Origin: Microcaldota archaeon
Lineage (GTDB): Archaea; Micrarchaeota; Micrarchaeia; Micrarchaeales; Micrarchaeaceae
DNA: 64,000 nt
Direction of reading: 5' to 3'
NCBI GenBank assembly: GCA_021799635.1
Contig: JAJZAB010000001.1
Span: forward strand, 94,505 to 158,504
Shown: in pieces, positions 19,385 to 24,909 of the stretch
How positions within the stretch are numbered: position 1 is the first letter of the stretch
How the letters are laid out: each line of letters starts with the position of its first letter
Notes under the pieces: generated by a model
What the model saw: the letters and a program-made list of their open reading frames with translations, nothing else
Told to the model about the DNA's origin: nothing
Databases searched by the model: none
Program-made: the position numbers and the translations under genes

Positions 19385-19456
19385 GGGCTCTTAGCTCAGG
19401 AGTAGAGCGTTCCGTTCGCAACGGAAAGGCCGCGGGTGCGATTCCCGCAGAGTCCA
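19385..19456 (+). tRNA. tRNA-Ala(CGC)
   Basis: GGGCTCTTAGCTCAGG...TTCCG-TTCGCAA-CGGAA...GCGGGTGCGATTCCCGC-AGAGTCC-A. Confidence 0.88.
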
Positions 19457-20557: not shown

Positions 20558-20720
20558 TTAATGTGTCAATAACTATTGATATATCTTCATGCATATAAAC
20601 ATACACGAAGTCCACACCACTTGACGTGGGCTTGACGCAGAGTCCAATAATATTTCCATCGTGGTAGGGTGCAATGGACCCCCTGAAAGTTATTAAACAT
20701 TGAATTGTGTTATTGCAACA

Positions 20721-21171: not shown

Positions 21172-21441
21172 ATGAAACAAATGCAAACACAAATAATGCA
21201 CTCGCCAACATTGGATACTGTACTAATGGTAGAACATACACTGCAGGATGCAAAGGAAGTTATCAAGATAGCCGAGCTTAAGCGCAGATTGCCCCGCAAG
21301 GTAATGCACCAGACATTGATGAGGATACTTGATTATCTTCAGGAGAGCGGCAAGATACTGATTACAACAAAGGGAGTTGTCTGGACTTACACGCCTAGGG
21401 ATATGATGGAGAGACTGAAGAGAAGAGGATTGGAGCTATGA
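21172..21441 (+). CDS. Putative antitoxin, winged-helix-like
   Basis: 89 aa; stop overlaps start of the RelE-like ORF (21438); HTH-like KIAELKRRLPRKVMHQTLMRILDYLQESGKI. Confidence 0.6.
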   Translation: MKQMQTQIMHSPTLDTVLMVEHTLQDAKEVIKIAELKRRLPRKVMHQTLMRILDYLQESGKILITTKGVVWTYTPRDMMERLKRRGLEL

Positions 21442-21803
21442 AACCATCAAAGACAATAAGGGTAATTCTTCGGGATCAGGCTAGAGAAGAGTATGAAACC
21501 TTATCCAGAGTTGTTGAAGAACAGAAGAAGAAACGCAAGACAAACTCGGAAGAGATGCAACTTCTCAAATCCATAGACAAGAAAGTTGCATTGTTGAAAT
21601 ATAACCCCGCATATGGACAGAACATATCCAAAGACCTCATTCCAAAAACATTGGATGTAGATAACCTTTTCAGAGTTGAGCTAACGCATTATTGGAGAAT
21701 GCTTTACACAATTCGAACAAATGAAGTGGAAATAGTAAGCTTTGTGCTTTACATTATAGACCATCCTGCTTACGACAAACTCTTTGGATATAAAGGCAGA
21801 TAG
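21438..21803 (+). CDS. RelE/ParE-like toxin
   Basis: 121 aa; VDNLFRVELTHYWRMLYTIRTNEVEIVSFVLYIIDHPAYDKLFG is RelE-fold-like. Confidence 0.6.
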   Translation: MKPSKTIRVILRDQAREEYETLSRVVEEQKKKRKTNSEEMQLLKSIDKKVALLKYNPAYGQNISKDLIPKTLDVDNLFRVELTHYWRMLYTIRTNEVEIVSFVLYIIDHPAYDKLFGYKGR

Positions 21804-21880
21804 GCTAGCAAACGTAAGCACTTGCATAATAATGTTATCGAGTGGGACTGCATGAAAAGCTGCAGTGACGCCGAGTCCAA

Positions 21881-21903
21881 TAAACTTCTTGAGAAGAAGT
21901 TTA
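21881..21903. repeat. Perfect 10-bp inverted repeat with 3-nt loop (TAAACTTCTT-GAG-AAGAAGTTTA)
   Basis: Direct reading. Confidence 0.9.
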
Positions 21904-22070: not shown

Positions 22071-23081
22071 ATGACAGATGCTAATACAGATATAAGGCCA
22101 AAACTTGAAGTATATCTACCTGACTTTACACTCCAAGGTCAAAAGATACCATTTTACATCATCTGGCCAAACTCTCTTAAATTACAAATAAAGATAAAAA
22201 TACCCAAGTCCTTTAAAATATTGGAACTCTATAATCTAAGCGAAAGTAACTTTAGTACAGTTGATTCTGAAATAGTCATCAAAAATGTTGACGTGAACGG
22301 CTACCTCGGTGGCACATTTCAGACTAGCTTAGATCCCGTACCAGACCGCATTGAGCATATAGAATTTTTAATTAATGATGGTTCTTCAGAACAAAAATAT
22401 TTCAAAGATGTAGAATTATTTAGACAAGATGTAAAACTTACCGAGTCTAGAAATAACAAAATTGTAGAGTATGAAGATAATAAAATAAAGCTAAGTAGCA
22501 CGAATAAGATAGAAAACTTAGGTAAAGGCACTGCGATAGTCGGTTTTGAAATATTAAAAGAAAGTGAAGTAAAGGAATCGTTACCAGAAGGTTTTGAAGA
22601 GTTTAGAAACAATTTAGTTAAAGATTTATCAGTTGAATTAAAAGCTTTACAAGAGAAATTCCCTCAGTACGAAGAAGGCATCTCGGGTTTTTCCAGTGCA
22701 TTGAATATACCTCTACCTCCCCGTGAAGAGGATATTAAAAAATTCAATGAAGATATTGGATTGATAGACAGTTACATACGTTCAGATGTACAGTTTTTAG
22801 CATCTTTCTCAGAGGCTATAAAGATGGCTTATATTAAAAATTTCTCCTTACTTGTAGGAGTAGAAGAGCTAGTCTCTTATCTTAAATCATTAAAGTCAGC
22901 TAGAATAATACTTTATGATCCACTTAAGACCATACAGGTAGAAAAAGGATCACACAAGTTAAAATTGAATATGGTTATCGGCGATTTGGCTAACAATGCA
23001 TATCAGCCCATACCTTTATCTGATATAACAATAGAATCTGATAAGAATTGCAGGATACCATTTTATAAGTTGTTGGATTAA
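22071..23081 (+). CDS. Hypothetical protein, first gene of a two-gene module
   Basis: 336 aa, soluble; beta-rich N-terminus and helical middle; no family recognised. Confidence 0.7.
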   Translation: MTDANTDIRPKLEVYLPDFTLQGQKIPFYIIWPNSLKLQIKIKIPKSFKILELYNLSESNFSTVDSEIVIKNVDVNGYLGGTFQTSLDPVPDRIEHIEFLINDGSSEQKYFKDVELFRQDVKLTESRNNKIVEYEDNKIKLSSTNKIENLGKGTAIVGFEILKESEVKESLPEGFEEFRNNLVKDLSVELKALQEKFPQYEEGISGFSSALNIPLPPREEDIKKFNEDIGLIDSYIRSDVQFLASFSEAIKMAYIKNFSLLVGVEELVSYLKSLKSARIILYDPLKTIQVEKGSHKLKLNMVIGDLANNAYQPIPLSDITIESDKNCRIPFYKLLD

Positions 23082-23082
23082 G

Positions 23083-24099
23083 ATGAGTGATAATATGTTG
23101 ACAGGGTTAGAAGGTGAAGCAGCTAAAATTGGTTCTGGTATAGTATTTAGCGGTGGTAAAGATGTGGTTAAAAAAGCAATGGAAGGAGTCATGGACAAAG
23201 CTGGCCATGTTGAATCTAAACTATCTGAACACTTTGATATTGTAGGACAGGAAATAATTATAAAATGTCCAGAAAGGATACAAGAATATTCTTTGGCTCT
23301 AACACCAAAGGAGTCATCCTTTCTTCATCTTAATAGTGTGGTAAATTTCGATTATGGGAGAGTAAACAAGGCAACAGTAACACAGCTTCGTGGTTATGTG
23401 CCAATGTCACAAGCAGTAGTGATAAAGGATTCAGGTTTTGCCATAGATTTTAAGCAGCTAAGAAAAGGCGAAACATATTTAGTAGATGTCGAATATGGAA
23501 TAGAGTATGATAACTTCACAGAGGCTCTGGTCACTTTAGAAAGTGCAGAAGAAACACCCAATGAAGACAACCAGCAATATTGGATGCTCGCCCAACTAAA
23601 ACAATTAGATGCATTAAAGGGCAAGTATGGTAGGATAGATTTAAGAGATCTTGATTTTAGTGTAAATGTCGGCATTGCACAGGACATAAAGACAGCCCTC
23701 CCATCACAATTTCGTAACGGGTTGGAATTACTCAACAGTGCAGTCAAAAAATCAGGTAGAGGCGAAACATGGAATGTAGCAAGAGATTTCACTTCTCTGC
23801 AACAAGAAAAATACGGCCCTGAAACACTTAAACTTATAAGAGAACTAGTGAAAGTCTTTGAACCAGAAACTTTCAAAGACTATGTACGTCTTGGCAACAA
23901 TGAGTTTAGATATTGGGGCTGTAGAAAAGGAGCCTCTATCTATGATATACCTTTTGTATCGTGGCCTAGGACTATGGTAGTAACTTCTAGAACAAGTCTA
24001 GGATTCGACAAGCCTACCGCCAAAGGCACTCTAATATACGAGAAGAAGGGCTTTACTAAGAGAATAAGTTCTATTTTTGATAGCAAAAGTCAGAGTTAG
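23083..24099 (+). CDS. Hypothetical protein, second gene of the module
   Basis: 338 aa, one base after the upstream stop; no family recognised. Confidence 0.7.
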   Translation: MSDNMLTGLEGEAAKIGSGIVFSGGKDVVKKAMEGVMDKAGHVESKLSEHFDIVGQEIIIKCPERIQEYSLALTPKESSFLHLNSVVNFDYGRVNKATVTQLRGYVPMSQAVVIKDSGFAIDFKQLRKGETYLVDVEYGIEYDNFTEALVTLESAEETPNEDNQQYWMLAQLKQLDALKGKYGRIDLRDLDFSVNVGIAQDIKTALPSQFRNGLELLNSAVKKSGRGETWNVARDFTSLQQEKYGPETLKLIRELVKVFEPETFKDYVRLGNNEFRYWGCRKGASIYDIPFVSWPRTMVVTSRTSLGFDKPTAKGTLIYEKKGFTKRISSIFDSKSQS

Positions 24100-24112
24100 C
24101 ATTTTTCCTTGG

Positions 24113-24660
24113 GGTCGACCTGAAACTTTTCAAGTTTCACAGGCGAAGCCTGCAAGGGTCTCCCACGCTCCAACGAGCTTAAGCTTAGCTACTAAGCAAA
24201 TCAAGGAACCTTAGCGACCGATTTGGGTGGGGGCAAATCGGTCTATTAGAGTAAGCTTTCTATCGGGGGTTGAAAGCATAGCCCGCAGCCACCGCAGGTG
24301 GCGGTAGACCACGAACAGCTTTAGCTGTTCGGGGCGTAGCGGGCGTTACTCTACACACTTTTTGAAAAAGTATGCAAAATCAGGTAGTTTCCAACTAATG
24401 GGGAGTTTTCCCTCATAAAACGACTAAAAACGACGTAAAATGAGGTCATTTTACTCCCCACGTATGAGCAAAATACTCCCTACGTCTTATATTTGCTCCA
24501 AATTTATGATTTTGTGAGGGGTTCGGATTTTATACAAAATCGCACCAGATGTGTATATTAATTCGGGGTTGCTAATAATAGTAAATAATCGGGGTTCATT
24601 TGCAAGCAAATGTGTTTAATCGGGGTTGCTATGTCTAACTCAAATTTACGAGGTAAATTT
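24113..24660. other. Hairpin-dense non-coding tract, candidate structured RNA or origin-like region
   Basis: Perfect inverted repeats listed in findings; no substantial ORF on the supplied track. Confidence 0.6.
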
Positions 24661-24706
24661 TCGGCTTCGGACCCGAGGATTGCGGGTTCAAATCCCGCAG
24701 AGTCTA
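24661..24706 (+). pseudogene. tRNA 3'-half relic (anticodon loop through discriminator), attachment-site-like
   Basis: CTTCGGA loop, GGATT variable region, GCGGG-TTCAAAT-CCCGC T-arm, AGAGTCT-A acceptor strand; no matching 5' half upstream. Confidence 0.6.
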
Positions 24707-24909
24707 CAAGCCAGCTGGGCGCTGCGGTTGCACTGGATTTGAACTAGGGGATTAACAGCTCAGACTGAATGCGCCTGGGCGCAATGGATGCTACGCCGCG
24801 GCTGATAGAAAAATTCCTGACACCCTCAGCTTGTGGCGTTGGTTCGCCAGGGCTGCGCTGATTTGTTGAACGAAATCCATATAAAGCGTTACGTCATAAA
24901 TAGGCTATT

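Follow-up and report, generated by a model that had tools for sequence, protein, structure and literature searches.

The nested fold at 24216-24353 of the window (the whole 64,000-nucleotide stretch of Micrarchaeota DNA analysed here) is real and sits within a conserved, hitherto unlabelled palindrome-and-repeat block that belongs to small mobile elements inserting into tRNA genes of Micrarchaeota. The fold forms one part of this larger module, which spans about 0.4 kb (window approximately 24107-24490) and starts upstream at CCTTGGGG (24107). The module is conserved and its helices covary, its repeats keep a recurrent geometry, and the elements that carry it share an anatomy in which the integrase gene is split. 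We infer that the module acts as DNA, with a role as an origin or in maintenance, and our leading reading is that of a cis-acting DNA locus for origin, maintenance or transfer functions, on which our judgement is evenly balanced.

Presence, energy and conservation of the fold

The preliminary description had proposed a set of nested stems in the non-coding tract of the island, all of which were recovered, and the nested arrangement was the RNAfold minimum-energy structure of 24210-24360 on both strands. The energy was -67.2 kcal/mol on the plus strand, against -46.8 ± 3.6 kcal/mol for dinucleotide shuffles (z -5.6), and -64.6 kcal/mol on the minus strand, against -37.5 ± 3.7 kcal/mol (z -7.4); the real fold was better in each case, with 0 of 200 shuffles matching it on either strand. 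The further claim that the fold lies outside known RNA families also held, in that no family was returned for it by Rfam at gathering scores or when 23900-24900 was scanned permissively. A tmRNA-like Rfam match at 24660-24699 was rejected, as it corresponds to a tRNA 3' fragment.

Homologues with compensatory changes, proposed earlier as a check on the fold, were found. DNA comparison within the taxonomic family exposed two conserved stretches, 24097-24456 and 24519-24697. A degenerate pattern built from the first of these matched 12 contigs among 85,462 GTDB species, ten of which belong to these archaea (nine titled Micrarchaeota and one Marsarchaeota); the Marsarchaeota-titled contig had a model score equal to that of a copy in G234, a genome placed in the window's order. 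Both bacterial matches (L045 and L048) had no trace of the rest of the module and were dismissed as chance. A reading of 24520-24708 as a second unknown module was rejected, because the region holds the int promoter, int(N) and attR. Using a home-made covariance model of 140 positions, for which E-values are rough, we screened 303 draft genomes of the Micrarchaeota phylum, and 56 of them contained the module. These 56 belong to a single order, within which they represent two families; individual genomes have as many as five copies, and the window's own genome gave three matches. Divergent copies were missed by the model: of 20 integrase loci selected for having no hit in that screen, about eight contain the D2 hairpin, D4 repeats or a weak match to the model.

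In an alignment of 84 copies fitted to the structure, 96% of cells pair and 24 of the 25 pairs had changed on both sides, which are the compensatory base-pair changes looked for in a functional ncRNA, and the covariation score was 0.400, as compared with 0.121 ± 0.006 after shuffling. A structure-free MAFFT alignment of nine sequences gave a score of 0.184 versus 0.101 ± 0.013.

Anatomy of the module

We divided the module into four parts, D1 to D4 (Table 1). In the homologue alignment, D1 of the family starts with CCTTRR and ends in AAGGAACC, and its end helix (helix 1) covaries, with a change from CCTTG/CAAGG to CCTTA/TAAGG visible among homologues. The D2 stem varies in sequence between copies, with double changes in all nine pairs of helix 2, and its loop is conserved. 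D3 has the family consensus AGCCCGCC..GTCGCC-GAA-GGCGAC..GGCGGGC and contributed helices 3 and 4 to the covariation analysis.

Table 1. Features of the module and of the element around it, in window coordinates.
Feature	Position	Strand	Description
D1	24107-24210	+	End helix CCTTG(GGG) 24107-24114 / CAAGG(AACC) 24202-24210; from homologue alignment
D1 interior			Variable hairpins; hairpin GCTC-CAAC-GAGC 24167-24178; stem-loop CTTAGCTACTAAG 24184-24196, family consensus loop GCNACC
D2	24216-24243		10-bp perfect palindrome, G-rich loop GGTGGGGG
D3	24247-24353		Multibranch; outer stem TAGAGTAA/TTACTCTA, then GCTTTC/GAAAGC, GCCCGC/GCGGGC, GCCACC/GGTGGC and CGAACAGC/GCTGTTCG
D4 repeat block	24346-24490		ACTCTAC within 24346-24354; inverted GGGGAGT 24400-24406; ACTCCCCACG at 24453; ACTCCCTACG at 24475
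int promoter	24520-24561	+	Inverted repeat GGTTCGGATTTTATACAAAATCGCACC 24520-24546; TATA-like TATATTAA 24554-24561; conserved beside tRNA fragments in related loci
TCGGGGTT repeats	24563, 24589, 24620		Follow the int promoter
int(N)	24631-24707	+	ATG 24631; split integrase start (MSNSNLRGKFSASDPRIAGSNPAES...), runs into tRNA fragment
attR	24666-24708	+	tRNA 3'-half-like fragment, anticodon loop to 3' end; GCGGGTTCAAATCCCGCAGAGTC versus GCGGGTGCGATTCCCGCAGAGTC of the tRNA at 19385
tRNA-Ala(CGC), intact	19385-19456	+	Likely attL side of the island
Winged-helix antitoxin-like gene	21172-21441	+	Homologues of this pair adjoin the module in other genomes
RelE/ParE-like gene	21438-21803	+	Second gene of the pair above
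Two cargo genes	22071-23081, 23083-24099	+	Immediately 5' of the module; no credible Pfam match

D4 consists of direct and convergent short repeats, of which ACTCCCCACG and ACTCCCTACG are 22 bp apart in the window. In other copies the repeat word is specific to a type (CTCTACATG, ACTAAAGACC, ACTTGGAAC or ACTTCATCTG) and its position is kept, and 30 of 50 convergent repeat pairs have a centre spacing of 22 bp. Moreover, repeat type is independent of integrase type, such that the integrases of L112 and L116, which are 94% identical, accompany the words CTCTACATG and ACTAAAGACC, respectively. Tandem D4 blocks (L093 and L157), tandem D1 domains (L108 and L113) and mosaic D1/D2 combinations (L134 and L136) were also observed, and such mosaicism is as expected of exchangeable cis sites.

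Elements that carry the module

A tyrosine integrase gene was present near the module in 49 of 79 loci, mostly downstream and convergent, and in many of them the integrase start directly adjoins a tRNA gene. Toxin-antitoxin genes of several kinds were sometimes located between module and integrase; among the neighbours, PIN, HicA and DUF4258 were confirmed by Pfam, and winged-helix, RelE-like and RHH proteins were assigned by sequence resemblance. These neighbours are of several kinds, occur in both orientations or are absent, and a leader RNA for one kind of toxin-antitoxin system was rejected on these grounds.

In 18 loci the 3' end of the tRNA recurs on the far side, with the intact tRNA at the other end, giving apparent element sizes of 1.4-6.3 kb. 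Repeats of the tRNA 3' end at most 900 bp from the module were convincing in only two loci, and a search of the whole flanks located them 0.2-4.6 kb away. Most of the tRNA 3' copies lay beside a conserved promoter that contains inverted repeats, together with an ATG from which the reading frame continues into the tRNA; L137 has no int(N) beside its copy. This int(N) start was in frame with int(C) at the intact tRNA in 12 of 16 testable elements, placing attP inside int. The link of the module to 'suicidal' integrative elements, in which int is split at the attachment site, is well supported. The integrase domain is that of tyrosine recombinases (PF00589, E 1e-12 by Pfam in one representative), and at E ≤ 0.01 Pfam reported PF00589 alone for that representative and not Phage_integr_3 (PF16795). 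A split 'suicidal' tyrosine integrase with PF00589, not Phage_integr_3, was noted in L089, L028, L108, L117 and others.

Suicidal-integrase anatomy is described for SSV viruses and for the pTN3 and pT26-2 plasmids, and the known suicidal families carry Phage_integr_3, according to a 2021 review (PMC8371274). The present elements resemble those systems in that attP inside int overlaps a tRNA, integration leaves int in two pieces, int(N) and int(C), and an intact tRNA at one end is matched by a 3' fragment at the other. Unlike them, they reside in Micrarchaeota, have apparent sizes of 1.4-6.3 kb, encode a PF00589 integrase instead of a PF16795 one, and possess a palindrome/repeat module, of which the searched passages of that review describe no counterpart. 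They would add a self-splitting integrase lineage to those covered there. Searches of phage and plasmid collections found no relatives of the integrase, and literature searches on integrative elements of Micrarchaeota gave no paper with a listing that describes them.

Across the delimited elements the integrase and the module are conserved, whereas other cargo varies and often includes a toxin-antitoxin pair. Their gene tables held no gene family common to all except the integrase, nor was a replication initiator recognised in them, with part of the cargo proteins run against Pfam. The cargo of L108, L136, L113 and L091 resembles mercuric reductase, ArsR, thioredoxin, ArsC-type phosphatase, cation efflux proteins and ParA (the last checked by Pfam for L091).

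A linked tyrosine integrase, cargo lying 5' of the module in many elements, and the tandem and mosaic D1, D2 and D4 arrangements described above could together be read as signs of an attC-like recombination site, with D1 folding as single-stranded DNA and exchanging modules or cargo beside the integrase. Archaeal integrons (PMC9668308) likewise link long imperfect palindromes to a tyrosine recombinase and toxin-antitoxin cargo. However, the D1 ends, CCTTRR and AAGGAACC, have no R box (GTTRRRY/RYYYAAC) by inspection, no array of cassettes built from repeated D1 units was observed, and the integrase, which inserts in tRNA genes, already has an attP of its own inside int, in tRNA sequence. The mosaics, moreover, can come from homologous recombination, and we regard an attC-like site as quite unlikely.

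Action as RNA or as DNA

A new, large structured ncRNA of these elements, transcribed from the plus strand and serving in maintenance or counter-defence, would account for the elaborate nested fold with its compensatory changes, for covariation that persists in the unfitted alignment, for folding energies that are significant in most copies and for the conserved unpaired motifs (the GCNACC loop and AAGGAACC). Large RNAs are known from phages or mobile elements, GOLLD and ROOL being examples. The module shares large multibranch folds with GOLLD, ROOL and OLE RNAs (PMC12286853), but the window has no Rfam match, and both the substitution pattern and the loop flips are unlike RNA constraint.

Specifically, G-U pairs should outnumber A-C in the stems if RNA were selected. 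In the alignment fitted to the model, where the fit should favour G-U, the stem exceptions comprised 29 G-T and 34 A-C, and an alignment-free count over 146 distinct hairpins gave 6 G-T and 8 A-C against 1309 Watson-Crick pairs, all of these wobble counts being small. By comparison, the tRNA stems of the same loci, used as a control, had 13 G-T versus 4 A-C. G-U was thus not tolerated over A-C on the strand that would be transcribed, and the stems are nearly perfect Watson-Crick palindromes. Both strands fold about equally well, with a mean z across copies of -3.3 on the plus and -3.8 on the minus strand, the latter slightly better relative to shuffles. Furthermore, of 63 copies of the D2 loop, 52 have the G-rich form and 11 the reverse complement of it, and a TATA-like signal at -40 to -18 upstream of the module was not enriched (6 of 73, versus 9 of 73 in a control window).

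The substitution pattern therefore looks more like that of working DNA than of functional RNA, and we consider the ncRNA reading unlikely. Of the earlier proposal of a folded ncRNA, a real, conserved and covarying multi-helix fold in the non-coding tract of the island stands, whereas the assignment as functional RNA found no support in the wobble counts, the flipped loop or the promoter search. Template switching during replication can flip loops and generate paired changes, in RNA genes as well (PMC8794818), so that neither the loop flips nor the covariation by itself proves selection on RNA or on DNA. What covaries like an 'RNA fold' may instead be DNA that folds, which matters for any covariation-based search for ncRNAs.

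A candidate cis-acting DNA locus

In the delimited elements only the integrase and the module are conserved, their gene tables held no recognisable initiator, and repeat types do not follow integrase types, for which reasons we favour a cis-acting DNA site that is served in trans. Under this proposal, the D1-D3 palindrome cluster and the D4 repeats would together constitute an approximately 0.4-kb cis-acting module of the split-integrase elements. The hairpins would act as cruciform or single-stranded DNA and, together with type-specific repeats spaced at two helical turns, could form a binding and initiation site that serves the replication, maintenance or transfer of the excised circle, while the initiator would come in trans from the host or from a helper element.

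Iteron-type plasmid origins are built from short repeats, both direct and convergent, that are set at helical spacing and combine type-specific sequence with constant geometry, and have toxin-antitoxin genes nearby. D4 matches them in the helical spacing of its repeats (22 bp), its type-specific words, its constant geometry and its nearby toxin-antitoxin genes; it differs in that no initiator gene was recognised in the gene tables of the delimited elements and a large palindrome cluster lies beside the repeats. A Rep-less origin is unusual, and D3 is longer and more elaborate than a simple binding site needs, both of which count against this reading, as does the lack of a recognised initiator gene. 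No helper locus bearing the same repeats was recognised among the matches to the CTCTACATG pair that were examined; most matches to this pair coincide with these elements.

The frequent position of the module between the integrase and toxin-antitoxin or cargo genes, and the operator-like arrangement of its repeats, would also suit a regulatory spacer, in which operators for antitoxins or host regulators are combined with hairpins that insulate convergent toxin-antitoxin and int transcription. We find this improbable, since a given repeat type is found beside different toxin-antitoxin genes or none, the module in the window's layout is not between convergent genes, and it is too elaborate and conserved for a terminator.

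Returning to a cis-acting site served in trans, the module could, more specifically, represent a new class of replication or transfer locus, whose palindromes and interchangeable repeat modules let integrase-only archaeal mini-elements be replicated or moved in trans, a suggestion we put forward tentatively and with more doubt than belief. Were it correct, these would be satellite-like, protein-poor mobile elements of DPANN archaea that use host or helper machinery. For tiny and mostly uncultured archaea, the module offers a testable way into the question of how small mobile elements persist and spread.

The element of the window

The window's arrangement of module, int promoter, int(N) and tRNA fragment is common to L132, L026, L097, L106 and L130. 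Only int(N)/attR is intact in this element, its int(C) being missing or decayed beside the tRNA-Ala(CGC) at 19385: the sequence up to 19480 reads VQIDFYDDKY* in one frame and resembles a decayed int(C) start. We pair this tRNA with attR as the probable ends of the element, and do so provisionally, because attR and the tRNA at 19385 do not match exactly. The RelE/ParE-like pair of the island had only a sub-threshold ParE_like hit in Pfam.

Elsewhere, a tRNA-Ala-like gene on the minus strand of L002 (approximately 1501-1600) has an apparent TGC anticodon and what seems to be an intron next to it. Within the window, TGACGCnGAGTCCAATAA occurs twice, at 20633-20650 and 21866-21883, and the first copy shares GCAGAGTCC with the 3' end of tRNA-Ala; these copies may be scars of older insertions.
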